In this document: one piece after another, positions 5,799-45,215 of the stretch
Numbering within the stretch: the first letter of the stretch is position 1
How the letters are laid out: the number at the start of each line of letters is the position of its first letter
From: Acidimicrobiaceae bacterium
Lineage (GTDB): Bacteria > Actinomycetota > Acidimicrobiia > Acidimicrobiales > RAAP-2
Direction of reading: 5' to 3'
Assembly: GCA_003133685.1 (NCBI GenBank)
Contig: PKYQ01000020.1
Coordinates: 1 to 64,000 of the forward strand
DNA length: 64,000 bases
Translations under genes and position numbers: made by a program
Notes under the pieces: model-generated
Seen by the model: only the letters and a program-made list of their open reading frames with translations
Told to the model about the DNA's origin: nothing
The model's database searches: none

Positions 5799-5996
5799 CG
5801 ACTTACCTCGTTGTCGTGGCCGCGACGCGAATCTGATTGAGCACGTGGGCGAACAACCACTTCACCGGTAGAACTTTCGCGTAAGGACCATGGCGAAAGA
5901 AACGTCAGCATCGGAATTCTTCGTCTCGAAAAAAACGCGATCGCACCGTGCTCCCATTCTTGGTTCTGCGCACGTTCACCCCATCTCGCGAACTCT

Positions 5997-6911: not shown

Positions 6912-7204
6912 CCGTGCCGATCCGAAATTACTGCTCGATGGTGGTGGATTCCGGTCAGTTGACTACTCGGCGTCACGTTGAAACCAACTGACGATCGCTG
7001 TCGCTCATCGCGACGCGGAGATCACGGCGAGGAACACGCGGCAGCGATCAGCCAAGAGAAGTGACTTAGTGCCCTTGATCCATTTCGCCGTCACTCCCTA
7101 TGGTCGTGAACGGTGGAGAGGAGTGCCTTGGGTTGGGACGCCACTCCTTCCACCACCTTTCGTCGACGAAGTTCTCGTCGTGCCGATCATTGGCGACGTG
7201 GCCC

Positions 7205-9694: not shown

Positions 9695-10906
9695 ATGTCC
9701 ACCTCCGCACGACCTTCGAATCGCTCCGCCGCAACCCCGACGCTGAGTTCGGGCCATCACGTTCTCGGTCGCCACACAGTTGCGCGAACTCTGCGTCTCT
9801 CCTTCGGCACCTCGTTGGTCGCCGGAATTGCCTTCATCACGCTGGCGGCATTCGGGACCCAGTCCGCGATGGCCGCCACGGCGACGGTCAACCTCGGAAC
9901 CGCGTCGTCCTTCGCCGTATTGGCTGGCAGCGAGATCACCAACACAGGTCCGACCACGATCAGCGGCGATATCGGACTCTCTCCGGGCACGGCGATCTCC
10001 GGTTTCCCGCCGGGCTCACAAACCTCGGGTGCCACGTACGTGGCAAACGGCGTGGCTCTGACCGCCGAGAACGACCTCATCACGGCCTCTAACAGCGCCG
10101 CGAGCCGATCGCCCTACGTAACCGTTTCGGGAGACCTGGGCGGATCAACACTGGTCTCCGGCGTCTATCGCTCCACCTCTTCCATGGGACTCACCGGCAC
10201 CGTCACCCTGAATGGCGCCGGAAACCCGGACGCAGTCTTCATCTTTGAAGCGGGATCAACATTGACGACCGCGACGACCAGCACCGTTGTGCTCGAAAAT
10301 GGAGCTCAGGCGTGCAACGTGTTCTGGCAGGTCGGCAGCTCCGCCACACTGGGGACCACCACTAACTTTGCCGGATCGATTCTTGCTTCGACATCGATCA
10401 CACTGAACACCGGTGCGACCGTGAATGGCCGGGTCCTGGCGCTCGGCGGTGCCGTCACGATGGACGACAACACGATCACGGTGCCGACCTGTCTCCTGGC
10501 ATCGTCCACCACCACGACCGCGGTATCGGCAACCTCGACGACCGCGGTATCAACAACCTCGACGACCCCGGTGTCGACAACCTCGACGACCGCGGTATCG
10601 GCAACCTCGACGACCGCGGTGTCGACAACCTCGACGACCGCGGTATCGGCAACCTCGACGACCGCGGTATCAACGACGTCAACCACCCTCAAAGCCGGTA
10701 CGTCGGGTGGCACGCCGGTCACGCGCCTCACCTCGTCAGTCACCACAACAACAACGCCTCTACCGCTTGGTGCGCCGGAAACGGGCGCGGGGGGGGCGGC
10801 GCGATCTGTTTCATCGCTCCTCCTGCCCATCGGTCTTGTCGCACTGGGCTTGGCTGGCGTTTCGGGACCGCTGATTGTTCGCGCACGCCGTGCCAGGAAG
10901 AGCTAA
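9695..10906 (+). CDS. Surface-anchored ice-binding-like protein (DUF3494 domain)
   Basis: A 403-residue protein. A long signal peptide with basic N-region ends near AMAATA; a DUF3494 ice-binding-type beta-solenoid domain (about residues 75-265) follows, starting NLGTASSFAVLAGSEITNTG and containing ISGDIGLSPGTAI; then a Thr/Ser linker built of eight-residue TSTTAVS(A/T) repeats, and a C-terminal tail with APETG, a hydrophobic helix and a basic end (RARRARKS), which looks like a cell-wall sorting signal of LPXTG type. The start at 9695 is preferred over 9638 because of GAGAAGGA upstream. DUF3494 proteins bind ice or act as adhesins; the real ligand here is unknown. No sortase gene lies in the window. 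Confidence 0.82.
   Translation: MSTSARPSNRSAATPTLSSGHHVLGRHTVARTLRLSFGTSLVAGIAFITLAAFGTQSAMAATATVNLGTASSFAVLAGSEITNTGPTTISGDIGLSPGTAISGFPPGSQTSGATYVANGVALTAENDLITASNSAASRSPYVTVSGDLGGSTLVSGVYRSTSSMGLTGTVTLNGAGNPDAVFIFEAGSTLTTATTSTVVLENGAQACNVFWQVGSSATLGTTTNFAGSILASTSITLNTGATVNGRVLALGGAVTMDDNTITVPTCLLASSTTTTAVSATSTTAVSTTSTTPVSTTSTTAVSATSTTAVSTTSTTAVSATSTTAVSTTSTTLKAGTSGGTPVTRLTSSVTTTTTPLPLGAPETGAGGAARSVSSLLLPIGLVALGLAGVSGPLIVRARRARKS
10508..10675 (+). repeat. Seven 24-bp tandem repeats encoding TSTTAVS(A/T) linker
   Basis: Seven in-frame 24-base units, of the form ACCTCGACGACCGCGGTATC plus four variable bases, run from 10508 to 10675 inside the surface protein gene. The variation is mostly at codon third positions and alternates GGCA/AACA/GACA endings. 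The repeat encodes a flexible, probably glycosylatable stalk. Copy number is likely to vary between strains. Confidence 0.92.
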
Positions 10907-10934
10907 AAAGAGTTACCCAACGTCACTCGTCCGG

Positions 10935-11129
10935 CGTGCGACGACCTCGCACCTGGGCATCAAGGTACGCTCGTTCAGCCTCGTGGCGCGCCAGTTCGAG
11001 GGCCCGATTACTTTTCACAAGTGCTTCGTCCGCGCGACCGAGGCGATGGGTGGCCCGTTGCTATTCGACAGCACACCGGGCAATGGCTCGATTTTCACCG
11101 TACCGCTGCCGATTTTCAAAGGTTCCTAG
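10935..11129 (+). pseudogene. Fragment of a histidine kinase C-terminus
   Basis: The frame ending at TAG 11127-11129 encodes ATEAMGGPLLFDSTPGNGS followed by IFTVPLP, which matches the end of a HATPase_c domain (VEAMGG...STPGxGSxFTVxLP). The preceding LGIKVRSFSLVARQFE could be the degraded GLGL box region. There is no start, dimerisation domain or N-box, so this is a remnant of a deleted sensor kinase lying between two unrelated genes. Confidence 0.6.
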
Positions 11130-11216
11130 CTGGTCCGGTGGCGTGACGGGAATGTGACGCGTCCGTCGGCGTCCAACACTTCCTCGCTCACCGACGTGTA
11201 ACTGACCCCTTCTACG

Positions 11217-32200: not shown

Positions 32201-32276
<76 letters not shown>

Positions 32277-32431
32277 TTTGATTCCTCTTACTGACATTGA
32301 TGCAACGAACTGTGTCGTCCACAATCCGAAGGGCCATCGTAGTACCGGTACGTGTGACGTGACCCACAACGTCGGCAGTCTGACGTCGGCACTCGAGATT
32401 CTTTTTGAACGGCCCCAGTCGATTACTGAAT

Positions 32432-32477
32432 TGGTGCGCCTGGCGGGATTCGAACTCCCGACCCTCGATTCCGTAGG
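32432..32477 (-). pseudogene. Displaced 3' half of a tRNA-Arg gene
   Basis: Reading the minus strand from 32477, the 3' side of an anticodon loop and stem, a full T arm (CGGGAGTTCGAATCCCG), an acceptor strand CAGGCGC, discriminator and CCA are intact, but the 5' half is absent. It differs from the same part of tRNA-Arg(ACG) at 36234 by five positions in 46, several of them compensatory within stems. It is therefore a piece of a different but related tRNA-Arg. Homology to the intact gene stops at the anticodon loop, the usual crossover point of tyrosine integrases. Confidence 0.8.
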
Positions 32478-32851
32478 AACTTTCCACAGACTGCAACTAG
32501 GGGATTACCCGGGAAATATGCCACAACTCATTGAGCAAATGCCCACCCGCATCCAGGGGAGCTGACTTCCGTAAGTACAACGATAAGTACAGTTCGACAA
32601 TTGTGACTCGTTACCCAAACGAATCTCATAAATGCAGTTTTCAAAGTGATGTAAGCCGTGTCACTCAGTCTTTCGTACATGATGCAACGTATTGAATGAG
32701 AAGTATTAGTAGTGAGTTTTATTATCGAACGTTGATGATTTATTCCGTTGTGGGTGCCTACGATTGAGTTTCGACACCATGACAAGACAGAATCGACTCA
32801 AGGCCGCACATACAACGCTCCTCGTAGTCTGAGGGGCATTAGGAGAGCATC
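32478..32851. other. AT-rich non-coding left end of the island
   Basis: About 370 bases with visibly lower GC than the flanks. No frame is coding-like. There are short imperfect repeats (AAGTACAACGAT/AAGTACA near 32575-32595). The promoter of the secreted orphan gene should lie near the right end; its ribosome site TTAGGAGAG is at about 32839-32847. Confidence 0.45.
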
Positions 32852-33406
32852 ATGAAGCGTTTCAATATTGGATCAACAATAATTCTGTCGAGCCTGCTCA
32901 GTTTGGTCTTGACCGCGATTCCGGCGACGGCTGCGGTGACAACGTCAACGGGGTCAAGGGATGCCACCTCAAATGGCGCCCTTGTGACTGCACACTTGTC
33001 AACCCCGATCGGCGGATTAAATTGTGCCGACCTTCTGGCTATGGGCAATCCATATATAACGACTTCAGCTTTAGTAAGCGGCGTTAAAGCGCAGGCACTC
33101 AGTACAAGTGTTTTCGATGACGTTGCGGCTGGCTACATAAACGAAGGTGGTCTCTATGCCACCACCGAAGCTGGGATTGCTTGCGGGAATATCTTGGAAG
33201 AAGGACGAGAACCCAAGTCAGCTCAAGTCACAAAGGCGATGGAATTTCTTTACGGCACGTTGGAAGATGTGTGGGCGTTTGCAGTTGTAGACCCAACAAC
33301 GAAGAGTTTCTTTGCCGGCCAGGCAACCGTCCAGGCAGCTATTTTTCAGTCTTATGGGAACGAAATCCTTGAAATTCGTGCGATAGCAGGCAATTATTCC
33401 AGTTGA
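32852..33406 (+). CDS. Secreted protein of unknown family, island orphan
   Basis: A 184-residue protein. The signal peptide (MKRFNIGSTIILSSLLSLVL...) is likely cut after ATAA; the mature protein is about 155 residues with two Cys (in LNCADLL and IACGNIL) that could form a disulfide. No known domain is recognised. The codon choice is more AT-rich than in neighbouring genes outside the island (for example TTA, ATA and AGT codons), consistent with transfer. ATG 32852 has a good AGGAGAG site. Confidence 0.7.
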   Translation: MKRFNIGSTIILSSLLSLVLTAIPATAAVTTSTGSRDATSNGALVTAHLSTPIGGLNCADLLAMGNPYITTSALVSGVKAQALSTSVFDDVAAGYINEGGLYATTEAGIACGNILEEGREPKSAQVTKAMEFLYGTLEDVWAFAVVDPTTKSFFAGQATVQAAIFQSYGNEILEIRAIAGNYSS

Positions 33407-33790
33407 CAGAGCGGTAGGCGAAGTCAGCTGTCCGGGAAACGCCGTTCAACTCATGAAGTGGGGATAGGTGATAGGGACACCCGACGGCATAGCCAGCAGA
33501 AGGGGCTGACGCCAAGATAGCGAATCTTGCCTGGTCACGGCGAGTCAGCCTGACTCTACGTTGCTGCTGACGATATGGGTCTCAGGTTGACTTAAACCTT
33601 CAGCAGCCTCGTTGATTGCCGCAACTCGTGGAAATCATCAACGTTACCTATCTCTTCGACTCATGCAATGTGTTCACTTCAATCGACATCAATAAATCAA
33701 GGACATAGGCAAAAAATCCAATGGCGGCCGATGACCGAGGCCACCGACCGCCATATTTGACAGCCATTGATTAGGTTCTGACGTGACTCC
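33407..33790. other. Non-coding block with nested inverted repeats
   Basis: No reading frame is coding-like. At 33504-33550 GGCTGAC-GCC pairs with GGC-GA-GTCAGCC around an internal AAGAT/ATCTT hairpin. At 33563-33607 GCTGCTGA pairs with TCAGCAGC around an AGGTT/AACCT hairpin. A third, weaker GTTGAT/ATCAAC pair follows near 33612-33643. Three consecutive stems in about 140 bases suggest a structured RNA or a recombination/origin-like site. See the finding for this region. Confidence 0.4.
33711..33754 (-). terminator. Rho-independent terminator of the 33791-34519 gene
   Basis: Reading the minus strand, ATGGCGGTCG pairs with CGGCCGCCAT (10 bp, one T-G wobble), followed after four bases by TTTTTT. 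It lies 37 bases downstream of the stop codon. Confidence 0.75.
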
Positions 33791-34519
33791 TTACGAACCG
33801 GTGTATCCGCCGGTAGCGAGACCGATGATGCTCGCGTCATACGCGGCGTACGCCAGGGCAATGTTCGCGTCGAGAATTCGCTGATTCTGGGCGACGAAGA
33901 TCTTCGTGTTCCCTGGGTAGCCTTGAGGTGTCTGGGCGAGCACGGCGCCTTCCACGCTCACAATTCTTGTTGACCAGTTTGAAAGACGCGCGACGTAATT
34001 GTTGTAGTGGCTAAGAGCGTTTTTGTAGCCCGGTAGACCTACGATTGACGCAGTTTCTGATTGGAGCGTCGATTCGTTACCCTGCATCGTCGTAACCTGA
34101 CTCGCCACAACCGAGGCTTCGATCATCTCGAACACTTGTGGCGACATCACCGCGTAAACGCGGTTGTCCTTCAACATCGCGGCGCGGTCTGCGTTGAGTT
34201 CTGCTTTGGTGGTGTCTGTCGGAACCTTCGCAATCAAGGAATTAATACTCGACTCCTCTGTCAAAAGGCGTGCTTGGAGTGTCGACGAAGCACTCGCGCT
34301 CAGCGACGTCGCTGCCGTCACGTCTGCGACAAGGTGCCCAAGTTGCGTTGCACGGTTTGCCAACTGGACCTCCAGCGCCTTTTGCGCCGTAATGAAACTG
34401 GCACTCGGAGCAGCGGTCGTAGTCGTGGTCGACGAGGCGTAAGCAATGGATGGAATGCCGATACCCATGGCGGCGACTAGCGCAAGTACCACAAAGGATC
34501 GGGTAGTTAGGTTCTTCAT
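33791..34519 (-). CDS. Secreted helical protein of unknown function
   Basis: A 242-residue protein from ATG 34519, preceded by AAAGGAGAAC. The signal peptide MKNLTTRSFVVLALVAAMG... is cut near AYASS. A Thr stretch follows, and then a long helical, Ala/Ser/Leu-rich region without Cys (QKALEVQLANRATQLGHLV and similar), resembling periplasmic four-helix-bundle proteins in composition only. It ends GGYTGS. It has its own terminator, so it is monocistronic. No family is recognised. Confidence 0.7.
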   Translation of the reverse strand: MKNLTTRSFVVLALVAAMGIGIPSIAYASSTTTTTAAPSASFITAQKALEVQLANRATQLGHLVADVTAATSLSASASSTLQARLLTEESSINSLIAKVPTDTTKAELNADRAAMLKDNRVYAVMSPQVFEMIEASVVASQVTTMQGNESTLQSETASIVGLPGYKNALSHYNNYVARLSNWSTRIVSVEGAVLAQTPQGYPGNTKIFVAQNQRILDANIALAYAAYDASIIGLATGGYTGS

Positions 34520-34658
34520 CAGTTCTCCTTTCAAAGGAACAATCCTCAGAGTAAGAAACGCATTTGTGAGAGTCGTGTGAAGGTGCTGTCAGATGGCTGA
34601 GAGATAGTTCCGAAAATTGTGTGAAGTGACGTCACACTCCCGTCGTTCGCAGGAGAAC

Positions 34659-34787
34659 ATGGAAGGTCACCCACATGACAGTGAGACCGACGTCAAAGCC
34701 GCCCATGTCTTCCTGCGGGTGTGGGTCAAACGCGTGAGACGTGAAATGGCGCGAACACAGGTCTGGACCGAGACGCGTTGGTCTTAA
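34659..34787 (+). CDS. Possible 42-residue basic protein
   Basis: ATG 34659 has AGGAGA immediately upstream (spacing three bases) and opens MEGHPHDSETDVKAAH..., a charged peptide with an amphipathic basic middle (VWVKRVRREMART) ending at TAA 34785-34787. It is the only coding-like frame in the 34520-34874 gap. Length and lack of homology leave it doubtful. Confidence 0.25.
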   Translation: MEGHPHDSETDVKAAHVFLRVWVKRVRREMARTQVWTETRWS

Positions 34788-34874
34788 TTAGATGCGGACG
34801 CCTGACGAGTCAGGTTCTCTTGAATGCATACATCGCGCCACTGGCGTAACTGGGCGCCCGTCCCCAGTTCCAAA

Positions 34875-35432
34875 CTAGAACTGTCGAAGGGGTCGCCCGT
34901 TGGGATCATCCGCTGGCGGTTGCGGATATCGAGCGTCGAAGTCTTCGAGATGCGTAACCGCGAGCGCTTGCGATTCTCTGTTGAAGGTAATTGTGAAGCG
35001 ATCGAAAAATCCAATTTGTCCGAGAACCATGCTCCAAGGCGGGTTATTCCACTCCAAGAAAAACCCGACCTGCGTGTACCATTCGAACACACTTCCGGGA
35101 TCGTATCCACCCTCGGAGACGCTGAATTCCGGTGGAAGAAGTTGAATTGCTACGTCTGCAAATCGGACTTTCCGATGAGCACCACCAATTTGTACCATCA
35201 ATTCTCGGGAGGCATCTGGCGTAACGCCAATGTCCTGGGCAATCCAGGGTGCCGCGAGTACATGATCGGCACCCGAGTCAACGAGAGCTTGGACATTCTG
35301 GCTACCTAAGTGGGTTCCGAGGGCTCGAACGACTACGACCGGACGCAAAAGAGGTTTGCGTAGGAATTCGGTGCCTTGGGTTCTGCCCTCGTCTTCGTAA
35401 CGAAAGATCCAAGGAAAGGGACTTGAGGCCAA
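34875..35432 (-). CDS. Retropepsin-like aspartic protease
   Basis: A 185-residue protein. ALVDSGADHVLA with Asp52 is the D-S/T-G active-site motif of single-domain (dimeric) retropepsin-like proteases. The second hallmark, a hydrophobic-Gly flap partner, appears as MVLGQIGFFDRFTITFN near residue 140. The N-terminal PWIFRYED and central IGGAHRKVRFADVAIQLLPPEF are consistent with the fold. It has no signal peptide, so it acts in the cytoplasm. It starts eight bases after the DUF5678 stop and is therefore cotranscribed with it. The target is unknown. Confidence 0.78.
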   Translation of the reverse strand: MASSPFPWIFRYEDEGRTQGTEFLRKPLLRPVVVVRALGTHLGSQNVQALVDSGADHVLAAPWIAQDIGVTPDASRELMVQIGGAHRKVRFADVAIQLLPPEFSVSEGGYDPGSVFEWYTQVGFFLEWNNPPWSMVLGQIGFFDRFTITFNRESQALAVTHLEDFDARYPQPPADDPNGRPLRQF

Positions 35433-35440
35433 ACTGATCT

Positions 35441-35686
35441 CTAACCCAGACCTACCAACTCGGGTTCGCTTTCGCCTGGAATTCGAATGATGGTCGTATC
35501 CACAATATTTCGATCATGTAGGGCGGCCACCAATTCGTATGGCGTCCTACTTGCCTCCACGACACCGCCGTTCTTCAACGCGACCCAGGATCCCGCGAAC
35601 TGCTGGCGAATTTGGATCATGTCCAACTTGACCGGTTCCTGATTAGCCACTGGACGCTCCAATAATCTTCGTATCCACGACTTCAT
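35441..35686 (-). CDS. DUF5678-like small protein, partner of the protease
   Basis: An 81-residue protein. The core FAGSWVALKNGGVVEASRT followed by LVAALHDRN and TTIIRIPGE matches the DUF5678 pattern (short beta-rich domain: WVAxxxGxVVAxG...VxxxP). DUF5678 genes are seen beside retropepsin-like genes in other prokaryotes, as here. It may be the protease's substrate, inhibitor or adaptor. It is the first gene of the two-gene unit and is divergent from a winged-helix regulator. Confidence 0.65.
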   Translation of the reverse strand: MKSWIRRLLERPVANQEPVKLDMIQIRQQFAGSWVALKNGGVVEASRTPYELVAALHDRNIVDTTIIRIPGESEPELVGLG

Positions 35687-35769
35687 AATGGCACCACCGT
35701 TCTAAGAAGTTCAGTGAATTCATGATTCGCGACTCGCTAATCATACTATCAGTGCGGCAGAATGAAGGA

Positions 35770-36126
35770 ATGACTCCGGATTCGGTCAGAAAGATGTCAA
35801 AAGCACTCTTTGGGAACTCCCACCGAGTCGAAATTGCGGCTGCAGTCGGCCAAGCGACGACCGAGCTAGTGACTGCCCACGACCTTGCACTGGAACTCGA
35901 CATTTCAGACAATCTTGTGGGAATTCAACTGAAGAGTTTTGTTCTATCGGGCGTAATGGATGATTTTCCAGGAATTGAAGGACAGCGTTCACGCTACTTC
36001 CGGCGTCTTGAGGATCCATACTGGGGCGTTGCTCAACGAATGATCGATCACTGGCGTATTCAGGCCGCGGCGAATGAACAATCACCTCGATTTGTCGAAG
36101 GGCTGACTCCCGAAAATCGTTCGTGA
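35770..36126 (+). CDS. Winged-helix (ArsR-like) DNA-binding protein
   Basis: 118 residues from ATG 35770; an in-frame ATG at 35722 would add 16 residues and leave only 35 bases to the divergent gene. The sequence ALFGNSHRVEIAAAVGQA, then VTAHDLALELDISDNLVGIQLKSFVLSG, has the helix-turn-helix and wing spacing of ArsR-type regulators. The C-terminus (YFRRLEDPYWGVAQRMIDHW) could mediate dimerisation. It probably controls the divergent DUF5678-retropepsin pair. No metal-binding Cys are present. Confidence 0.65.
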   Translation: MTPDSVRKMSKALFGNSHRVEIAAAVGQATTELVTAHDLALELDISDNLVGIQLKSFVLSGVMDDFPGIEGQRSRYFRRLEDPYWGVAQRMIDHWRIQAAANEQSPRFVEGLTPENRS

Positions 36127-36233
36127 ATGGAGAAAGTCACTGGCTGGCTCAGACGACGCTTTCAAATTCCGCCCGGGACGAAAAAGCATTCAACGGATCC
36201 CTCTACTTTCGAGGCCCGAGTTGATGATCTGAA

Positions 36234-36310
36234 TGGTGCGGCTGGAGGGATTCGAACCCCCGACCCTCGGTTCCGTAGACCGATGCTCTAATCCGCTGAG
36301 CTACAGCCGC
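36234..36310 (-). tRNA. tRNA-Arg(ACG)
   Basis: Reading the minus strand, acceptor GCGGCTG pairs with CAGCCGC, followed by discriminator A and encoded CCA. The loop CTACGGA in stem TCGGT/ACCGA gives anticodon ACG, the inosine-modified tRNA acted on by TadA (encoded in this window). The 3' end faces the accessory island. 77 bases, complete. Confidence 0.96.
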
Positions 36311-36381: not shown

Positions 36382-37569
36382 ATGACCAGCACATTTTCCG
36401 ACGATCTCCCCCGGCTTCTCGACGACGTCAACGAGTCAATGGTGGAGTTGCGACACGACCTTCACGCCCACCCCGAACTCGCGTTTCAAGAGCACCGCAC
36501 GACCAACGTCGTGCGAGACCGTCTCGTCGAATTGGGCTGGGAACTCGCAACGTGCCCGACAGCGACCGGCGCCGTGGCAGTCCTTCGAGGCGCCAAGCCC
36601 GGACGACGGATCATGATCCGTGCGGACATCGACGCGCTGCCCGTGACCGAGGAAAACCAGATCTCCTACGCATCAGTGAACGACGGTGTGATGCACGCGT
36701 GCGGCCACGACGTGCACACCGCCGGTCTTCTCGGCATCGCCGACCTCCTGTCGCGCCGTCGAGAAGAGCTTGCCGGAGAGTTCACGCTGTTATTCCAGCC
36801 CGCCGAAGAGGCGTTGGGCGGTGCCGTTGCGATGATCGAAGGCGGTGTTCTGATCAACAATCCAGTCGATGTGGTCATCGGGGCCCACGTGTCGTCACTG
36901 GCCCCGCTCGGTTTCGTGGGGACGAAGCCCGGCGTCATGATGAGTGAAGCCGCGTCGCTCTCGATTCACATCAAGGGCAACGGCGGCCACGGAGCGATGG
37001 CGAGCGTCGAGGGCAACGTCATCCTCGCCGTCAGTCACCTGGCGCCACGACTTGGCGAAGTCGTTGACGGGCTCTCCTTCGAAGGGACCAACTGCGCGTG
37101 TTCCGCCGGCGTCATAAGCGCCGGTACTGCGATGAACGTCGTTCCGCGTCGCGCCGTGCTGCGTGGAACGCTGCGAACCTTTACGCCAGAACAACACGTC
37201 GAAGCGGTTGAACGACTGCGTTCGTTGCTGGCCGAGTTGGAGGCGATGTTCGTCGTCGAATGCTCGCTCGAATTAACCGACCTCGCGCCGGCGGTCGTGA
37301 ATAACGCCGACGTGTACGAGCAGGTCATGAAATCAGCCACCAAAGTGGTGGGCGCGAGTGGCGTTATGACTATCCCACCGTTCACGCCGAGCGACGACGT
37401 CTCGGAGTTCTTGAACCGCGTCCCCGGCTGCTACATGTTCATAGGCGGCGCCAATGATGATGGGTCAAGCGGCATGCACCACAGTCCGGACTTTCAGGTG
37501 CAAGACGGCGCCTGTCGAGTACTCGCTGGCGTCCTCGCGCAAAGCGCGGTCGACCTCGCTCAGCTGTAG
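36382..37569 (+). CDS. M20-family amidohydrolase (N-acyl amino acid hydrolase type)
   Basis: A 395-residue metallopeptidase-fold amidohydrolase. Metal-binding residues are visible in HACGHDVHTAGLLG (about 109-121), FQPAEEALGGA (about 138), the His of VIGAHVSSL, and the C-terminal GMHHSPDF. The dimerisation domain includes HIKGNGGHGAMA. Relatives cleave N-acyl or indole-acetyl amino acids, hippurate or related conjugates; the substrate cannot be assigned. ATG 36382. The last ten bases overlap the convergent ppgK gene. Confidence 0.88.
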   Translation: MTSTFSDDLPRLLDDVNESMVELRHDLHAHPELAFQEHRTTNVVRDRLVELGWELATCPTATGAVAVLRGAKPGRRIMIRADIDALPVTEENQISYASVNDGVMHACGHDVHTAGLLGIADLLSRRREELAGEFTLLFQPAEEALGGAVAMIEGGVLINNPVDVVIGAHVSSLAPLGFVGTKPGVMMSEAASLSIHIKGNGGHGAMASVEGNVILAVSHLAPRLGEVVDGLSFEGTNCACSAGVISAGTAMNVVPRRAVLRGTLRTFTPEQHVEAVERLRSLLAELEAMFVVECSLELTDLAPAVVNNADVYEQVMKSATKVVGASGVMTIPPFTPSDDVSEFLNRVPGCYMFIGGANDDGSSGMHHSPDFQVQDGACRVLAGVLAQSAVDLAQL

Positions 37570-38321
37570 AAGAGCTTGGCGGCGCCGCGAATGGAAGCCT
37601 GGTTGCCGTTGATCACGACGCGGTAGGGAGCCTCGTCGAACAGTGCCGGTGTCACCCGTCGCGCATTACCTCCGGCCAAGTGAACGGTCGTCGCGCCGAA
37701 CTCTCGAACGAATCCGTCGGCGGCCATGACCAGCAGTTCGCCCCAGTGCTCTTCGTCCAACGACCTCGAGTGCTCACCAATCGTCTGGTCGTAGGTCTTG
37801 CCGCGCACGAACATCTCGGCGCCGACGTCGCGGATCTTGCGCAACGTGCCGTCGATGGCGAGCGCGATCCCGAGACCGGTACCCAAGGTGAGGACCAATT
37901 CAACGCCCTGGCCGTCGATCGAACCGAGCGCCGCCAACGTCGCGTCGTTCACGACCCGCACGTCTCGGCCGGTCGCCCTGCACAGCTCGTCTTGGAGCGC
38001 GAAGCCCTGCCACTGCGCTTCGAGATCGGGATCGACCTCCGTGGTCACTCCCCCGGGCCTCGAGAGGTTGCCCGGACGCACGACGTGACCGTCAATGAAT
38101 TCTCCGGGAAAGCCGATACCGACGCGCGGACACTCGCTCCCTTCGATCCTCTCGTCCAGTGCTTCGATGAGGCGTTCGGGTGAACACGGGTACGGCGTCG
38201 GGCGTCGGCGTACTCCTTCGAGCAGTTCGCCGTGGATGTCGACGTGACAGAACTTGACGTTCGTGGCGCCAATATCGACCGCCAAAATCTGATCTTGCAC
38301 GGGGGTTCGGGGTGGCGCCAT
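37560..38321 (-). CDS. ppgK: Polyphosphate glucokinase (ROK family)
   Basis: A 253-residue ROK kinase. AVDIGATNVKF is the phosphate-binding motif, VGIGFPGEFIDG follows, VNDATLAALG contains the catalytic Asp, and LGTGLGIAL is the second phosphate motif. Overall length and sequence match PpgK, which phosphorylates glucose with polyphosphate or ATP. The start is ATG 38321, 13 bases after the stop of the VirD4-like gene, so it appears to be read from the same transcript as the T4SS-like operon, an odd pairing. The canonical ROK zinc-binding Cys motif is absent, as is usual in PpgK. Confidence 0.88.
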   Translation of the reverse strand: MAPPRTPVQDQILAVDIGATNVKFCHVDIHGELLEGVRRRPTPYPCSPERLIEALDERIEGSECPRVGIGFPGEFIDGHVVRPGNLSRPGGVTTEVDPDLEAQWQGFALQDELCRATGRDVRVVNDATLAALGSIDGQGVELVLTLGTGLGIALAIDGTLRKIRDVGAEMFVRGKTYDQTIGEHSRSLDEEHWGELLVMAADGFVREFGATTVHLAGGNARRVTPALFDEAPYRVVINGNQASIRGAAKLFYS

Positions 38322-38334
38322 CAAGAAATGCTAG

Positions 38335-39492
38335 TTAAGGCTCGCGCACCCCTCTGACGCGAAGTCGCCGATCGTTCCACCATGGTTGCAAGCGAACCGG
38401 ATACGCGGGTCGGTGACCGGCAATCACGGTGCCGGTTCCGGGCGGCCGTTGGCGAAGCGGTACCGACGGCGGAGCGTCCTTGCGCGTCTCGAAGAGTTCT
38501 GGAAGAAACTGCGACGCCGTGGGATCGGCCAGACCGCCCAAGACCAAACGAGTCGTGTGGTTATTCACGATCGTCGAGGCTCGCGGGCCCCATCGGGCCT
38601 TCAGTTGAGAGAAGTCTTGCAGCACGGTCACCAGCGTGACGTCGAGGCCGCTCACTGTCGCGGCCATCTGGTCGAGCTCATCGAGTGAGGCGACGGTCGC
38701 CGCTTCGTCGAGCACAAGGAGCAGTCGTCGCTGCGTTCGAAGTTCGACCAGGCGCTGCTGCTCTTCCAACACCATTCGAAGAGCGCCGCGAAACAGTGGT
38801 TCGTAGTGCCGCTGTTCACCGCGGGGACTGCAGAGATACAGCGTGTTGGGACCTTCAACCACCGAACGCACGTTCGCGAGCGGCTGACGAAATCGCCACG
38901 GCATCAACATCGTCTCGGCCGTCGTGAGTACGCCGTCGATGGTCTTGTGGTCGTGCGTCAGGAATGCCTCGAGGACATCGGCGGCCTCGCTATGTCCGAC
39001 GTCGAGCCACTGATCGAAATCGCGCTTCTCAATCGTGCACGCGACGTCAAAAACGTCGCGTGATCGTTGGAACGCCAGCATGAGCAAGGACCCCACCACC
39101 TTCGTGGCGAGCGAATTCCAGAATTCGGTCTCGCCGCGATCGGCCGGCGCGCCCGTCAAGTCGCGTGCGACACGAAGCGCGTGGCGAAGCGTCCGAACCC
39201 CCTCGAGCGGGTTCCACGTCAACCCGCCATCGCGTCCTGGCTCGAGGACTTGCACTTCACCCACACGTGCGCGCCAATCTTTCGTGGTTGCGATGACGTC
39301 ATTCTTCACGCTCGTGACGACGAGCGCGTCGCTCCAGCGCAACAGCGCGGGAATCACGAGCGAGGACGTCTTGCCCACTTGCGTCGGACCAACGATCAAC
39401 AGCGAACTGCGAGGCGCGAGGCGCACCCGTGGTCCGAAGCTAATGCCGCTGTACGTGCGACGTCCGAGCGACGGACGATCATTCATCGGCAC
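38335..39492 (-). CDS. VirD4/TraG-like coupling ATPase of a T4SS-like operon
   Basis: A 385-residue P-loop ATPase. Walker A GPTQVGKTSS lies at about residue 34 and Walker B LLLVLDEAAT at about 260; TLVTVLQDFSQLKARWGPRAS and NNHTTRLVLGGL are typical of TraG/VirD4 C-terminal motifs. It lacks the N-terminal membrane helices of full coupling proteins, so it must be recruited by partners. GTG 39492 follows GAGGA and overlaps the VirB4-like gene by 14 bases. It is the last T4SS-type gene before ppgK. Confidence 0.82.
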   Translation of the reverse strand: MPMNDRPSLGRRTYSGISFGPRVRLAPRSSLLIVGPTQVGKTSSLVIPALLRWSDALVVTSVKNDVIATTKDWRARVGEVQVLEPGRDGGLTWNPLEGVRTLRHALRVARDLTGAPADRGETEFWNSLATKVVGSLLMLAFQRSRDVFDVACTIEKRDFDQWLDVGHSEAADVLEAFLTHDHKTIDGVLTTAETMLMPWRFRQPLANVRSVVEGPNTLYLCSPRGEQRHYEPLFRGALRMVLEEQQRLVELRTQRRLLLVLDEAATVASLDELDQMAATVSGLDVTLVTVLQDFSQLKARWGPRASTIVNNHTTRLVLGGLADPTASQFLPELFETRKDAPPSVPLRQRPPGTGTVIAGHRPAYPVRLQPWWNDRRLRVRGVREP

Positions 39493-40663
39493 TGGCGATC
39501 CTCATCGCGTGGTCCGTGTCGATGAAGGCGCGGTCTCGTTGGTCGGGGCACACCCGCACCACCGAACGATGCGGTCCGTAACGCACGAGCGCCGCGCCCT
39601 TCGGCAAAGCCGACAGGTACCGCTCCTCACGTCGATGCAACCCGAGCGCGACGGCCATCTCTCGAGCTTCATCAGGTGGCTGACGAAAGAGCCAGGCCGT
39701 CTCACACTCGCGCAGCAGTCCCTGCGCTCGTTCGCGATGCACCGAGCCCGCGTCACCGACGGCGGCGACGTCACTCCAGCGGTGCAAGACCAGCACGTGG
39801 CTAATGCCCTTCGCGCGCGCCAACTTCCAAGAGCCCTGCAACCAACGCAGGGCGTGCGGGTCAGTCAGTACCGACCACGCCTCGTCGAGCACGAGATATC
39901 CGAGTTCGTCTTCCACGGCGACCACTTGTTGCGCCGCGGCAATCGCGCTCAGCGCGGCTACGGGAAACGAATTCGACGACCACTGGGCCGAGAGGTCGAG
40001 GACAATGAGCTGACCGACGAAGACCATCGGTTCGTCCTCACCGTCGAACAACCCGGCGAGATCGCCGTGGATGAATCGGTACAGCGTCAGCGCCAAGTTT
40101 CGCTCCGGGGACGTCGTCGAGGACTCCAAATGCGAATGCAGCAACTCGAAGAGAGCTCGCAACACTCGTAGCGGTCGCGGAGTGTCCAACTGTTGCCACA
40201 CTTCATCGATCACGTAGTGCTGATCGCTTTTCAGGGCGGTACCTTGGGCGCTGGCGACGAGGGCCCGTAGTAAGTCTCGACTCTCTCGATCGTTCGACGG
40301 GAAGGGGCTGCACCATCCGTCGCGACCGAGCGCGACGACATTGACGCCGTAGGACCGCGCCAACTGCGCGTACTCGCCCTTGGGGTCGAGGATGACGGCT
40401 CGGCGACCACGTTCGAGTGCGCGATCGAGCATCATCTTCACCACCGTGCTCTTGCCGGCACCGATCGAACCGGCCACGATGACGTTCGGATTGGACAAGA
40501 GGCCCGTCGCGTACGCGTCAAAGGGATCCAGGACGAATGATCCACCACGCTGCGTCTCGCCGAGACTGCGCCCCCGTAGTCCGGTTCCTGCATCGTGCGC
40601 CGGCACCATCAGGCTGGCGAGGTCGCGCGACGTTGCCCAGTGGGTCCAGGAACGACTCACCAT
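39479..40663 (-). CDS. VirB4-like ATPase domain protein (SCO6880/TraC type)
   Basis: A 394-residue ATPase. GGSFVLDPFDAYATGLLSNP precedes Walker A GSIGAGKSTVVKMML (about residue 58); ILDPKGEYAQLARSYG follows; Walker B is LGYLVLDEAWSVL (about 240); and LRECETAWLFRQ is a VirB4/TraC family block. ATG 40663 overlaps the stop of the upstream gene (ATGGTGA). In related single-chain SCO6880-type proteins the region encoded upstream is fused to this one, so the two genes together make a split VirB4. Confidence 0.82.
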   Translation of the reverse strand: MVSRSWTHWATSRDLASLMVPAHDAGTGLRGRSLGETQRGGSFVLDPFDAYATGLLSNPNVIVAGSIGAGKSTVVKMMLDRALERGRRAVILDPKGEYAQLARSYGVNVVALGRDGWCSPFPSNDRESRDLLRALVASAQGTALKSDQHYVIDEVWQQLDTPRPLRVLRALFELLHSHLESSTTSPERNLALTLYRFIHGDLAGLFDGEDEPMVFVGQLIVLDLSAQWSSNSFPVAALSAIAAAQQVVAVEDELGYLVLDEAWSVLTDPHALRWLQGSWKLARAKGISHVLVLHRWSDVAAVGDAGSVHRERAQGLLRECETAWLFRQPPDEAREMAVALGLHRREERYLSALPKGAALVRYGPHRSVVRVCPDQRDRAFIDTDHAMRIASADE

Positions 40664-41724
40664 CCCGGAGCGCCCGGAAGTTGTGCGCGGTACCACGGGG
40701 CCTGTCGCCCAAATCCCGGTTCACAGCGGAGTCCCGACTCGAACGCCGAGCGGGTGACAGCCTTCACGTCTCGTCGGAGCATCTGCGGGGACGCCGCTCG
40801 AACGACGACGAAGACCGCGATCCGCAGTAATGCGGTCCCCTCGACCACCATCGACTCACGCTGACGAAGCCGTTCGAGAGTCCGCGTCGACTGCGCCGTG
40901 CGTCGAAAACCGGCGGCCCGGGACGTCACGTCATCACTCCCCACACGATGAACGGCTCGCGCGGCGAGTCGATGCGCACGGACGCCTCCGACAACGTCAA
41001 CGTGTACCACGACGTCCAACGTCGGCGACGCGAATTGCAGTCGTTCGAGGAGCGCACGACCGTCGGGCACGGCACTGAAGTCGCGCACCCGCAATACGCG
41101 TGTCACTCCGCGCGCGTCGCGCACGTACGTCCAACGCTCCAACAACCACGCCACGCCCGCACCCCCACCGGCGGTCGCCGCATCAAGCGCCAGAGCGCCG
41201 TTTTCTCTCCAGCCCAACGGCGCGCTCACGTCCACCGGCACGGCCAACAGTGTCGCCACGTCATTCGGAGACGTTCGCACGTGCAGCGAGAAGTGTCGCG
41301 TGTCATCCGATGTCGCGAGAGCGTCGGCGAACTCCGTGAGGGCTTGCGAATTTTGCTGGTCACGTCCGGAGAGGTCGAGTCGGCCACGGTGTTCCAGTTC
41401 AAAGCCGCGCACTATCGCCGCGCCGTGGGCGACGATCGTCACGACTTCGCCGCTCTTCGTCGCTTGAATCGAGGTCCACCGTGATCGAACCACGAAGTCG
41501 ACACCGACGCGCACTCGCTCACCGACGGTGAGGCCGTCGCGAGTCGGTGTCGCGCACGAGAGCAGGGCCACGCCCACCACGAGTTCGATGAGGGCGCCGT
41601 GAACTTGCGTGAGCCATTCGCCGACCAGTCCGGCACCGGCGATCACGAGGCCCGCCTGGTGGCGTCGAACGCCGATCCAACGGCTCTCGCCATCGGCGAC
41701 GCCGAGGCCCAGCAGATCACTCAT
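40657..41724 (-). CDS. N-terminal half of a split VirB4/SCO6880-like protein
   Basis: A 355-residue protein. One or two hydrophobic segments near residues 25-60 are followed by a domain that resembles the N-terminal part of SCO6880-like conjugation ATPases (GFRRTAQSTRTLERLRQRESMVVEG near residue 270 is the last recognisable block before the ATPase). There is no P-loop. It starts at ATG 41724, overlapping the VirB6-like gene stop by eight bases, and ends within the ATPase start. A single-base frameshift in an ancestral fused gene cannot be excluded, but the clean ATGGTGA junction favours two real genes. Confidence 0.65.
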   Translation of the reverse strand: MSDLLGLGVADGESRWIGVRRHQAGLVIAGAGLVGEWLTQVHGALIELVVGVALLSCATPTRDGLTVGERVRVGVDFVVRSRWTSIQATKSGEVVTIVAHGAAIVRGFELEHRGRLDLSGRDQQNSQALTEFADALATSDDTRHFSLHVRTSPNDVATLLAVPVDVSAPLGWRENGALALDAATAGGGAGVAWLLERWTYVRDARGVTRVLRVRDFSAVPDGRALLERLQFASPTLDVVVHVDVVGGVRAHRLAARAVHRVGSDDVTSRAAGFRRTAQSTRTLERLRQRESMVVEGTALLRIAVFVVVRAASPQMLRRDVKAVTRSAFESGLRCEPGFGRQAPWYRAQLPGAPGW

Positions 41725-42829
41725 CGAAGTGCCATCCCACCACCGGACCCATCTCGTCCGTGCGGTACGCCACGTGACCTCCTCGCGGCGTTGGCGTGCC
41801 CACGGGCGGCGGCAACTTCACGCCGGTGGCAACGGGCATCGGCGCCTCGGGGCCCCCCTCCCACATGCCGAGCCCCAAATCCTCGGGTCGCTCCTCGGGC
41901 CCGGGGATGGGTGCTTCGGGCACCAGCGCGCGTGCCGCTTGGGCGAGTGGCGATGACGGAATGTTCGTCGCGGTCTTGGTCAGACGCGATCGAACGCCCT
42001 CGAGATTGTGCAGCGCGGCGGTTTCAACAAAAGGGATGACCTTCAACAGAAGGAACGGGGAGAAGCTCGCGAGAATCAACGTGAGGGCGCCGGTGATCAC
42101 TTGGGTCGCTGAGTCGCCGAGTAGTTCATCGAATCCCAATGTCAGCGTGATCACGATGAGGAACTTGCTCACCGCCACGGCGAGGAACGTCTCGGCCAAT
42201 CGCCAACCCAATCGCCGTCCGGCGGGGAACGTCGCGAGCGGGACGATGACCGGAACGAGCACCAACAACAACGTCAGAATCACGGCGCGAACGATCAACT
42301 CACACCACAACAGCCACGACCCGATCACGACCGCGATGGCGAGAACGAAGAGCGCGAAAGCCGGAGCCGCCGTCGCCACACTGGACAACGCACTCGAGAG
42401 CTCCGCTTGACGATCGAGCACCGCGCTCGACGCACTCGACGAAAGTTGATTCACCGTCTCGAGGATGAGCGTCGCGAACGGCCGTGCGAGAAATATCCCC
42501 AGTACGCACGCCGGGGCCACCCCGAGATACACCCGCCACAGTGAAGCGGCGTCACCGTGACGAACCGCCTGCAGCGTCGCCACTAAGAGCCCCACCATCA
42601 ACAGTCCGGGCGAGAGATTGACCAGGACATTGAACTCCGTCGTCGCCGAACGAATGACGGTGCTCGGTTCGGTCGCCGAGTTCAGCACGGTGCCCGCTGA
42701 AGTAAGGAACCATCCAACGCTGTTGAGAATCCAGTTCGTCAGGGTGTTGAAGAAACCACTGACGACCGTGGTGGCCGCGGCGTGCGTCACACAGCTCAGC
42801 GGATGAAGGATGCACCCAAGGTGACCCAT
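41717..42829 (-). CDS. VirB6/TrbL-like polytopic membrane protein
   Basis: A 370-residue protein. An N-terminal periplasmic-side segment with two Cys (GCILHPLSC) is followed by about six to seven hydrophobic helices (about residues 35-270) and then a Pro/Gly-rich cytoplasmic tail. This is the layout of TrbL/VirB6 proteins that form the inner-membrane platform of T4SS-like machines. ATG 42829 overlaps the pilin-like gene stop by one base (TAATG); the frame extending to 43024 is a shadow. Confidence 0.75.
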   Translation of the reverse strand: MGHLGCILHPLSCVTHAAATTVVSGFFNTLTNWILNSVGWFLTSAGTVLNSATEPSTVIRSATTEFNVLVNLSPGLLMVGLLVATLQAVRHGDAASLWRVYLGVAPACVLGIFLARPFATLILETVNQLSSSASSAVLDRQAELSSALSSVATAAPAFALFVLAIAVVIGSWLLWCELIVRAVILTLLLVLVPVIVPLATFPAGRRLGWRLAETFLAVAVSKFLIVITLTLGFDELLGDSATQVITGALTLILASFSPFLLLKVIPFVETAALHNLEGVRSRLTKTATNIPSSPLAQAARALVPEAPIPGPEERPEDLGLGMWEGGPEAPMPVATGVKLPPPVGTPTPRGGHVAYRTDEMGPVVGWHFDE

Positions 42830-43113
42830 TAGCGGACGCTGAGACCCGTATTGAAGAAGAAGTTGATCAACGTCGGAGCGGCGCCGATGAGGATCGCCGC
42901 GGCGAGCGAGGTCAGCACCGCTCGGCGACCCTGTGACGATTGATGCATGTTCTGCGTGTGACTGCCGACGGCCCAAAGTGCGGCTCCCAGCAGTAGTGCG
43001 ACCAACGCGCCGATCAGGGCCCACGCGGCGATTCCATTTGCAATCTGCTGCAGCGCCGCGCTGCCGGGGAGGGCGGTCGTTGACGGGGTGAGACTCACAT
43101 TGGCGAACATCAT
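42829..43113 (-). CDS. VirB2-like small pilin/membrane protein
   Basis: A 94-residue protein from ATGATG 43113/43110 after a GAGAAC site. Two hydrophobic helices (about residues 23-45 and 65-85) are separated by a short basic loop (HTQNMHQSSQGRRA), the size and topology of VirB2/TrbC-type pilin precursors in actinobacterial T4SS clusters. It is the first gene of the operon; its start lies 78 bases from the divergent senX3 start, so the two operons share a promoter region. Confidence 0.65.
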   Translation of the reverse strand: MMFANVSLTPSTTALPGSAALQQIANGIAAWALIGALVALLLGAALWAVGSHTQNMHQSSQGRRAVLTSLAAAILIGAAPTLINFFFNTGLSVR

Positions 43114-43191
43114 GTTGTTCTCGCTTTCAAACGGTGAGCGCCCAACGGTCGCTGGCGCGACCGCCGCGGCATTGTCTGCGAGAATGGTCTC

Positions 43192-44487
43192 GTGCTCGTC
43201 GCGCTCACCCACAACGTGATTTCGAAATGGCCCCCCGCCCTCCTCTACGGAGCCGGCGCTGGGGTCCTACTCGTCGGACTCCTCCTCGGCGTCCTGATCA
43301 ACCGGCAACGCGGACATCGCGCCATCGCCCAACGACTCATGGCGCTGGCCTCTCGACTCGGCGTCGAGCCCCACGACGACAACGGTAAGGTCGAAACGGC
43401 GCTCAGCTTCCTGGAAGAGGCCACGGGCGTGGCCAGCACGGCGGTCTCGGAGTCCCGCGCCGACGCGTCGCGGTTGCGTCAATCCATGGACTCACTCCCC
43501 CTCGGACTCGTGCTCTGCGACGAGAGTGGCGGCGTCATCTTTCGCAATTCGCAGGCCGAGGCACTGATGACGAGCCGCTACGGCGACGCCATCGCCGCGC
43601 AGGCCGTCACCGACGTCCTGGCCGAAGGTTGGTCCAACGGCGTCGCTGAGCGCACCGTCGACATCTACGGTCCGCCGCGTCGGACCCTCACGATTCGCGC
43701 CACCGTCATCGACGACGGGCGTCGACCGTTGGGTGTACTCGCCATCATCGAGGACGTCTCGGAACGCCGTCGTCTCGAAGACATTCGTCGTGACTTCATC
43801 GCCAACGTGTCCCACGAATTGAAGACCCCAATGGGTGCGATCGGACTGCTCGCTGAGACGCTGTTGTTCGAGACCGACCCCGCGGTCGCCCATCGATTGG
43901 CCGAGCGCATCAACAACGAGGCGTTCCGCGTCAATCGAATCATCGAAGACCTTCTCGACCTCTCGCGCATCGAAGGTGAGGGGTCCCCAACACGCGAGCC
44001 AATTCCCGTCGTCCTGATCGTCGCCGACTCGATCGAGCGGATTCGCACCGCCGCCGAGCAACACGACGTCAAGGTTGACTTCGTGGAACCAGAAGCCAAC
44101 CTCGTCGTGGTCGGCGATCGTCGTCAATTGATCTCGGCCATTCACGCGCTCCTCGAAAACGCGGTCGTGTACTCACCGAGGGGCGGACTCGTGAGCATCA
44201 GCATCGATCGCGTCGAGGCCACGGTCGGCGACGATGGCGAGAGCGTCGGTCCGGTCGCGTTGATCGCGATCAAGGACCAGGGAGTGGGCATCCCCGCGAA
44301 GGACCTCGAACGAATCTTCGAACGCTTCTATCGCGTCGATCCCGGTCGGGCCCGCGAAACCGGCGGCACCGGACTCGGACTGAGCATCGTGCGCCACGTC
44401 GCACAAAATCATGGTGGCAACGTCCTCGTGGAGTCTCGTGAGGGCGAAGGTTCGACGTTCACCCTCGAGCTTCCGATGACGCACTGA
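43192..44487 (+). CDS. senX3: Phosphate-responsive sensor histidine kinase, SenX3/PhoR type
   Basis: A 431-residue kinase from GTG 43192. One clear helix (about residues 15-36) with almost no extracytoplasmic part is followed by a PAS-like domain (SLPLGLVLCDESGGVIFRNS, about 100-120), the HisKA phosphoacceptor NVSHELKTPMGAI (about 205), N-box LLENAVVYSP, G1 KDQGVGIP, F-box FERFYRVDPGR and G2 TGLGLSI. Such minimal kinases read phosphate status through PstSCAB-PhoU. The stop overlaps the regX3 ATG (TGATG). The phosphonate locus at 11-18 kb is a logical regulon member (inference). Confidence 0.88.
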   Translation: MLVALTHNVISKWPPALLYGAGAGVLLVGLLLGVLINRQRGHRAIAQRLMALASRLGVEPHDDNGKVETALSFLEEATGVASTAVSESRADASRLRQSMDSLPLGLVLCDESGGVIFRNSQAEALMTSRYGDAIAAQAVTDVLAEGWSNGVAERTVDIYGPPRRTLTIRATVIDDGRRPLGVLAIIEDVSERRRLEDIRRDFIANVSHELKTPMGAIGLLAETLLFETDPAVAHRLAERINNEAFRVNRIIEDLLDLSRIEGEGSPTREPIPVVLIVADSIERIRTAAEQHDVKVDFVEPEANLVVVGDRRQLISAIHALLENAVVYSPRGGLVSISIDRVEATVGDDGESVGPVALIAIKDQGVGIPAKDLERIFERFYRVDPGRARETGGTGLGLSIVRHVAQNHGGNVLVESREGEGSTFTLELPMTH

Positions 44488-45215
44488 TGCCCAAGAAACA
44501 TTCCAACGACAAGCGCGTCAACATCTTGCTCGTCGAGGACGAGGAATCGTTCGTCGACGCGTTGACCATCGGACTCGACCGTGAAGGCTTCGACGTGGCC
44601 GTCGCACGTGACGGCCAACAGGCGGTCGCGCTCTTCGCGAAAGAGACCTTTGACATCGTGCTGCTCGATCTCATGCTGCCCAAGATGTCGGGGCTTGACG
44701 TCTGTCGTCAAATTCGCGCGAGCAGCGAGGTGCCGATCATCATCGTGAGTGCCAAGGGCGAAGAGGTCGACATGGTACTGATGCTCGAAATCGGTGCCGA
44801 CGACTACGTCACGAAGCCCTATCGACTCAGAGAACTCGTCGCTCGAATTCGCGCAGTGTTGCGCCGCCGAGAGGCCCACGAGAACGTCGTCACGTCAGAC
44901 GACGAAATCACGTTGGGACCGATTCGCATGGACATCGACGCGCGCCGGTGCTACGTCGACGGCGAGGAGATCAAGTTGCGAAAGAAGGAGTTCGCGCTGC
45001 TGCGACTCCTGCTCGAGAACCCCGGTCGCGTGTTGACTCGTGAAGTCCTGATCGATCGGATCTGGGGCAGCGATTACGTGGGCGACACCAAGACCCTCGA
45101 CGTGCACATCAAGCGACTTCGCACCTTGATCGAAGACAATCCGAAGAACCCCGAACACATCACGACGGTGCGCGGCGTCGGCTACCGCTACGAAGCTACA
45201 AAATCTTCGGCCTGA
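44487..45215 (+). CDS. regX3: OmpR/PhoB-family response regulator, RegX3 type
   Basis: A 242-residue regulator with an 11-residue lead. The receiver domain (LLVEDEESFVDAL; phospho-acceptor Asp in DIVLLDLMLPKMSG, about residue 63; Lys in DYVTKPY) is followed by an OmpR-type winged helix (about 145-235: LRKKEFALLRLLLENPGRVLTRE...DVHIKRLRTLIE...TVRGVGYRYE). It is expressed with senX3 by a one-base overlap. Its 3' end overlaps the convergent serS by 20 bases. Confidence 0.9.
   Translation: MPKKHSNDKRVNILLVEDEESFVDALTIGLDREGFDVAVARDGQQAVALFAKETFDIVLLDLMLPKMSGLDVCRQIRASSEVPIIIVSAKGEEVDMVLMLEIGADDYVTKPYRLRELVARIRAVLRRREAHENVVTSDDEITLGPIRMDIDARRCYVDGEEIKLRKKEFALLRLLLENPGRVLTREVLIDRIWGSDYVGDTKTLDVHIKRLRTLIEDNPKNPEHITTVRGVGYRYEATKSSA

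Follow-up and report, generated by a model that had tools for sequence, protein, structure and literature searches.

Analysis of a 64,000-nucleotide stretch of the genome of an Acidimicrobiaceae bacterium (assembly GCA_003133685.1, contig PKYQ01000020.1, positions 1 to 64,000; hereafter the window) revealed five minus-strand genes with overlapping ends, running from 43113 to 38335 between a senX3-regX3-like pair and a ppgK-like gene. With moderate confidence, these genes are read as encoding the mating-pair (channel) part of a conjugation system that has been domesticated, is chromosomal and vertically inherited, and is split over two core loci, the second of which carries a relaxase gene, a further VirD4-like gene and a pafBC fusion gene. 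The five open reading frames (ORFs), described in a sequence-only reading of this DNA as a tightly overlapping operon of pilin-like, VirB6-like, split VirB4 and VirD4-like genes of a type IV secretion system (T4SS), were all confirmed:

42829–43113, minus strand: VirB2-like pilin (DUF6112), 94 amino acids (aa), ATG start at 43113
41717–42826, minus strand: VirB6/TrbL-like polytopic membrane protein, 369 aa, start codon overlapping the pilin stop
40657–41724, minus strand: VirB4 N-terminal half with hydrophobic N-terminal helices, 355 aa, weakly SCO6880-like (NCBIfam, below cut-off)
39479–40660, minus strand: VirB4 ATPase half, 393 aa
38335–39492, minus strand: VirD4-like coupling ATPase, 385 aa, PF02534 E = 1e-23

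The pilin matches PF19607 (DUF6112, E = 2e-10) and, only below the cut-off, PF18895 (T4SS_pilin), and contains two hydrophobic segments. It is the best conserved of the five proteins, with 69–96% identity to the window across 42 loci as compared with 32–89% for the VirB6-like protein. The latter has five hydrophobic segments, a match to PF04610 (TrbL, E = 3e-4) that falls below the cut-off of that family and a weak likeness to SCO6881. In the VirB4 ATPase half, the G-x2-G-x-GKS and DE residues, the P-loop and Walker B motifs, are invariant in an alignment of 16 rows. The 355-aa protein encoded upstream of it has no Pfam match up to E = 1, and its identity as the N-terminal half of VirB4 is settled by comparison of its predicted structure, where an AlphaFold model (mean pLDDT 82.1) matches residues 15–380 of TrwK/VirB4 with Z 18.8 and a root mean squared deviation of 3.5 over 257 aligned positions. 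This half may also include a VirB3/PrgI-like region. Both halves are found as one ORF of 534–832 aa in seven related loci, two of which are cut by the locus end; the count takes in only frames that run through both halves (L060, L062, L063, L065, L066, L069, and L073) and leaves out antisense matches. Of the components expected of a monoderm-type conjugative T4SS, the VirB4 ATPase is present in the operon, and the VirD4-type coupling protein occurs twice in the source genome. No hydrophobic anchor was found in the operon VirD4-like protein of the source species; some members elsewhere have one (for example, L095, L097, L103, and L112).

A scan of a public genome collection with the VirB4 ATPase half recovered 48 loci, nearly all from actinobacterial metagenome assemblies (Acidimicrobiaceae, Acidimicrobiales, and others). 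Most of the genomes considered here, which were sampled automatically, are incomplete metagenome assemblies, and some loci belong to both genus sets. Among the 48 relatives, senX3 adjoins the pilin gene in all 42 loci that reach that far and ppgK lies downstream in all 44 that extend to it, and a set of 35 genomes, largely overlapping the 48 loci, has the same gene order wherever the flanks are present. The lowest identities to the window are 27% for the VirB4 N-terminal half, 32% for the VirB6-like protein, 46% for the VirB4 ATPase half, 51% for the VirD4-like protein, and 69% for the pilin. In other families, the senX3-pilin-VirB6-VirB4-VirD4 order is found in 9 of the 11 fetched loci that show this flank (L100, L101, L103, L104, L105, and L109–L112), with L108 and L114 being other-family loci in which the senX3-pilin arrangement is absent. 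A genome assembled as one contig of 2,158,157 bp (G032) has the full series regX3-senX3-pilin-VirB6-VirB4N-VirB4C-VirD4. The VirB4 ATPase was detected in 37 of 41 genomes of the genus, and DUF6112 in 58 of 395 genomes of the class.

Across 11 close pairs, dN/dS was 0.06–0.22 for the genes of the VirD4-like protein, the VirB4 ATPase half, and the VirB6-like protein and 0.14–0.38 for that of the VirB4 N-terminal half, as compared with 0.03–0.19 for senX3, regX3, serS, and ppgK. The channel genes are under purifying selection. They evolve 1.6 to 3.8 times faster than senX3/regX3/serS, and their distances track those of the same neighbors (Mantel r 0.78–0.84 over 32 loci, after 17 of 49 had been dropped for incomplete genes). 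The T4SS and flanking-gene trees contain 22 and 20 well-supported splits, respectively, of which 14 are common to both. Because the genes are under purifying selection, have evolved largely with their neighbors and keep their synteny, the cluster appears to be neither a mobile nor a decaying element. The distribution also differs from that of a mobile integrative and conjugative element (ICE), with the same site occupied in every locus that reaches the flanks and with largely congruent trees. The sequence-only reading had placed a possibly domesticated machine in a core chromosomal position, which is well supported by the conserved synteny and vertical inheritance, and the survey of relatives that it proposed, for the same genes beside senX3, returned the senX3-pilin adjacency given above.

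When the VirD4-like protein was searched against the source genome, a further match appeared on contig C9 (locus L080). There, a VirD4-like gene faces, tail to tail, the gene of a 358-aa MOBF relaxase (PF08751, E = 3e-25), whose profile matches the TrwC and TraI structures with E = 5e-24. The relaxase gene is preceded, in the same orientation, by a fused pafBC gene, for which PafBC 6SJ9 is the top structure in the PDB (7e-16). Within the window itself no relaxase was found with PF08751, for which the only match in the source genome is that on C9, or with PF03432, for which that genome has no match at all, the other relaxase families not having been searched. The MOBF relaxase is found in all 41 genus genomes (PF08751); MOBP (PF03432), the other candidate, was rejected, with 0/41 genus genomes and 1/14 controls. 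The description of the operon as one without a relaxase consequently holds locally, for these two families, and fails at the level of the genome, where the distant relaxase that had been suggested as a check was recovered.

In 43 genus relaxase loci (38 further fetched and five fetched before), the pafBC-like, relaxase, and convergent VirD4-like genes occur in the same order without exception, and none of the 43 shows any change in the H-x10-H-x-H triad of the relaxase or in its N-terminal Tyr. The corresponding Tyr and HUH histidines are catalytic in TrwC. The gap between pafBC and the relaxase, measured between the ends of profile matches, is 19–46 nt in 34 of 35 genomes and 233 nt in the remaining one. 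Outside the genus, the arrangement of the second locus varies more. Eight loci of other families with a VirD4 paralog (L087–L094) were taken without selection, and both relaxase and pafBC adjoin in two of them (L090 and L094). A further set, L164–L171, was chosen because a scan had shown the convergent pair: L164, which belongs to the same family but to a different genus, has the complete trio, and of the seven other-family loci pafBC adjoins the relaxase in six (L165–L170), with none within 12 kb in L171. One of the genomes selected for the convergent pair (G260) has no VirB4 match. The sole relaxase match of G032 is a 684-aa protein (TrwC, E = 7e-37) encoded among aminotransferase, CtaG-like, and BipA-like genes.

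A functional link between the two loci is likely. Among 298 genomes of the order, VirB4 is found in 117 and a relaxase in 147, with both in 112 and neither in 146. Thus, a relaxase is present in 112 of 117 VirB4-bearing genomes as compared with 35 of 181 that lack VirB4, counts that are uncorrected for phylogeny and include the relaxases of mobile elements. A scan for neighboring VirD4-like and relaxase genes covered the VirD4-like matches listed, together with that on C9, and a hand-picked part of the relaxase matches, so that the pairs it contains serve as examples and not as a count. In three genomes of the genus (G275, G497, and G595), the VirD4-like gene of the operon is missing between VirB4 and ppgK and VirB4 is kept; the relaxase loci of all three retain the pafBC-like, relaxase, and VirD4-like genes, and in G275 the second VirD4-like gene is the only one among the matches listed. 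Hence the channel may be served by the VirD4-like protein that is encoded next to the relaxase. Moreover, the two parts are found at a single site in one relative: in L108 (G234, family f16) an 887-aa TrwC relaxase diverges beside the channel genes (L108:2144-4804 and 4830-11207), occupying the place that is held by senX3 in other families. The sequence-only reading had regarded a relaxase and transfer genes nearby in relatives as the mark of a decayed conjugative element. One relative does have a relaxase beside the channel, whereas the decay itself is contradicted by synteny and dN/dS.

Conjugative relaxases nick double-stranded DNA and remain on the 5′ end; the complex is docked by a VirD4-type ATPase, and the strand then travels to a partner cell through a channel that is powered by VirB4 and has a pilin. 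By this scheme, the pilin, the VirB6-like protein, and the two-part VirB4 would build and power a minimal trans-envelope channel. The compact MOBF relaxase from the second locus would nick the chromosome and stay bound to the single strand, which the second VirD4-like ATPase, together with the operon VirD4-like protein where present, would feed into the channel, and the strand would pass toward a neighboring, probably sibling, cell. Since no sign of a plasmid or an integrative element was seen around either locus in what was scanned, the transferred substrate would be chromosomal. In the genus, the relaxase gene follows closely behind pafBC on the same strand, which, by gene order only, would tie transfer to DNA damage and suggests a damage-linked use of the system. 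PafBC drives the mycobacterial DNA-damage response (PMC6789036; see also PMC11804915). The cooperation of the two loci, the movement of chromosomal DNA, its direction, and the connection with damage are all inferred.

ComEC (PF03772) was found in 0/41 genus genomes and in 10/14 controls. ComB-type T4SS competence requires the ComEC inner-membrane channel. Transformation by the usual route is therefore unlikely in the genus, and of the earlier suggestion of a domesticated secretion or DNA-uptake machine, the domestication stands and uptake by the ComEC route is improbable. Type IV pilus ATPases (PF00437) are above the cut-off in 31 of 41 genus genomes, as compared with the relaxase in all 41, and hence are not required for keeping the relaxase. 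PilB/PilT-like ATPases are also encoded in the source genome (G000, contig C10, about 226–239 kb), where ComEC is absent. A fuller scenario, offered only tentatively, is that damage sensed via PafBC raises the relaxase, which nicks the chromosome, and that the minimal T4SS delivers the strand to siblings for repair and recombination, replacing ComEC-type transformation in a system widespread in one order.

Several observations weigh against a two-locus conjugation system. The relaxase of the source genome reaches 74 bits with NCBIfam MobF, for which the cut-off is 100. Five of the 117 VirB4 genomes have no relaxase, and 35 of 181 have a relaxase without VirB4. Even counting copies on mobile elements, the VirB4 profile matches only the stated 117 of the 298 genomes of the order, and four of the 41 genus genomes (85–93% complete) gave none. 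PF12642, the one VirB8 family searched, was found in 0/41 genus genomes and in 1/14 controls. Four conflicting pairs of well-supported splits set the T4SS and flanking-gene trees apart. In a test of rate covariation with VirB4, run on the 22 of 35 genomes with all genes (13 were dropped), the relaxase did not stand out, its partial r of 0.21 (p 0.08) equaling that of serS (0.21); the second VirD4 gave 0.53, and pafBC, the intended control, 0.83. For this test rebuilt profiles were used for the genes of the first locus that they cover and the pilin was excluded; the first profile sets had held spurious antisense senX3 ORFs (pilin and VirB6-like) and fused ORFs (VirB4 halves). Outside the genus, six of the eight unselected VirD4-paralog loci (L087, L088, L089, L091, L092, and L093) have neither relaxase nor pafBC, and the relaxase of G032 does not adjoin pafBC. 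Finally, inspection for an origin of transfer (oriT), which covered just the stretch ahead of the second VirD4-like gene, identified none.

The strongest of the other explanations, although an unlikely one, is that the channel has been repurposed for the secretion of effectors or surface proteins, with the relaxase locus doing something else, such as DNA processing in repair. Relaxase and channel are unlinked in the source genome, and chromosomal T4SSs without a linked relaxase are often read as protein secretion systems (PMC3158045), which also counts against conjugation here. The T4SS of Patescibacteria has similarly been read as co-opted for non-conjugative roles (PMC12102498). However, neither the retention of the relaxase Tyr and HUH residues in every genus locus nor the co-occurrence of relaxase and VirB4 would be expected of a secretion system, and clustering of the neighboring genes gave no common effector-looking family, in an analysis that included no dedicated effector search.

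A second alternative concerns control and is compatible with a conjugation system: that SenX3-RegX3 switches the operon under phosphate starvation. The features that flank the operon are as follows:

43192–44487, plus strand: senX3-like sensor kinase of the PhoR/PnpS type, transcribed divergently from the operon
44487–45215, plus strand: regX3-like OmpR-family response regulator
43114–43191: divergent intergenic region of 78 bp between senX3 and the pilin gene
43175–43187, plus strand: block TCTGCGAGAATGG, just upstream of senX3
43141–43152, minus strand: block GCGACCGTTGGG, upstream of the pilin gene
43120–43128, minus strand: GAAAGCGAG, a ribosome-binding-like site upstream of the pilin gene
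37560–38324, minus strand: ppgK-like ROK kinase, beginning 10 nt past the VirD4-like stop

The head-to-head layout, the shared 78-bp region and the adjacency of senX3 to the pilin in all 42 loci that reach it speak for such control. Against this, the divergent region keeps only core-promoter-like blocks, and neither the sensor nor the regulator passes the cut-off of any curated phosphate family, so that senX3-regX3 is a name of convenience. The blocks are kept in most of 43 aligned rows (L048, L070, and L071 deviate), and TCTGCGAGAATGG and GCGACCGTTGGG would fit two divergent core promoters. A RegX3/PHO-type box was rejected as a candidate, no conserved regulator repeat being visible by eye in the 43-row alignment, to which no motif program was applied. 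Phosphate control is thus rather improbable, and the phosphate link raised by the sequence-only reading has nothing beyond adjacency in its favor.

It is more doubtful still that the genes import DNA from other cells, in the manner of the archaeal Ced system, for repair, recombination, or phosphate. The composition of VirB2, VirB6, and VirB4 equals that of Ced/Ted (PMC9905601), and the absence of ComEC from the genus sample would call for another importer. The retained relaxase points instead to a donor role, and no conserved phosphate-type control box was seen. Lastly, decay of an old conjugative element, to which the minimal gene set, an anchor seen in some other members but not in the VirD4-like protein here, the loss of that gene from the locus in three genus members, the short source relaxase (358 aa as compared with open frames of 403–1106 aa in loci outside the genus), and the side-by-side relaxase and channel of L108 might point, is very improbable and largely refuted by dN/dS well below 1, the invariant relaxase Tyr/HUH residues, and conserved synteny.

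Around the operon, the ppgK-like gene is probably on the same transcript as the five genes; it scores 57 bits with the NCBIfam polyphosphate glucokinase family, far under the cut-off of 250. In two loci, L071 (9723-11048) and L098 (8691-9914), the latter from outside the 48-locus set, a cytochrome P450 gene separates ppgK from the VirD4-like gene. The same senX3-T4SS-ppgK cluster, with a VirB4 ATPase 71% identical to that of the window, also occurs in a locus titled Candidatus Saccharibacteria (L053, CAJCJA010000032.1), a label that is probably a binning or naming error. No integrase was found among nine ORFs picked at 29.6–38.3 kb, the rest of the window being unscanned and attachment sites not sought. 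Farther along, about 4 kb of lower G+C content (32201–36310; 0.51–0.55 as compared with about 0.62) between two tRNA-Arg genes is possibly a small island; four of its scanned ORFs have no Pfam match and one (34878–35432) is aspartyl-protease-like.

At the second locus, 39 genus loci share a strikingly conserved stretch ahead of the VirD4-like gene. It was considered as an oriT and, after the other strand had been read by eye, set aside as probably coding, and is not used as evidence; in L080 it matches no Rfam family or tRNA. The stretch precedes a Lys/Ala-rich (histone-H1-like) gene on the opposite strand (L080:8980-9640) and may encode a short peptide. Some genus members have additional, stronger TrwC matches of about 250 bits in open frames of 727–1200 aa (G601:C40, G612:C7, G588:C54, and G584:C50; L115–L118), which probably represent mobile elements and not the core relaxase. 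As for the structural model of the VirB4 N-terminal half, weak matches to a flavin oxidase fold (Z about 7) were treated as background. The model also matches chain 6umm_A of mycobacterial ESX-3 well (Z 14.7, 239 residues, model range 20–355), which hints at a fold common to type IV and type VII secretion parts.

As far as is known, the ability to conjugate almost always belongs to plasmids and integrated elements. If the proposed system is real, then channel, relaxase, and coupling protein are core genes in a genus in which no ComEC was found, which could explain how such bacteria recombine. No published account of a two-locus system of this kind was found in literature judged mostly at listing level. 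A 2011 survey of ICEs in Actinobacteria required an integrase besides coupling protein, VirB4-like, and TrwC relaxase genes (PMC3218068), so that a system split over two loci and lacking an integrase would probably have been overlooked.

The genus relaxases share the HUH histidines and N-terminal Tyr of TrwC (R388) and TraI (F), whereas the source relaxase is only 358 aa long, with no helicase domain matched, and is chromosomal and downstream of pafBC. The VirB4 N-terminal half and the VirB6-like protein are weakly similar, below NCBIfam cut-offs, to SCO6880 and SCO6881, families that act in actinobacterial mobile elements. Mycobacterial distributive conjugal transfer exchanges chromosomal DNA but is said to involve type VII secretion and not a T4SS (PMC9905601). 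The T4SS of Patescibacteria, related to MPF-FATA, is also conserved, chromosomal, and of the monoderm kind, but mostly lacks a relaxase and is taken to serve purposes other than conjugation (PMC12102498), in contrast to the relaxase present in 41/41 genomes of this genus.

The closest parallel is with the Ced and Ted systems of Sulfolobales and Thermoproteales, which are chromosomal, domesticated T4SSs whose components may, for Ted, lie at distant loci (PMC9905601 and PMC11868833), and of which Ced is induced by DNA damage (PMC11868833). Both these and the system described here have a chromosomal, vertically inherited VirB2-like pilin, VirB6-like channel, and VirB4-like ATPase. The likeness is drawn at the level of the T4SS superfamily, with NCBIfam CedD being only a weak ATPase match in the window. 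No archaeal relaxase is known (PMC9905601), whereas the system of the window keeps a MOBF relaxase and VirD4-like proteins; with the relaxase in all 41 genus genomes, it resembles Ced/Ted in outline and is not counted as a member. What sets it apart from these other systems is that a relaxase and coupling proteins have been retained among the core genes, at a second locus, and it is best read as a bacterial counterpart of Ced/Ted that kept its relaxase.

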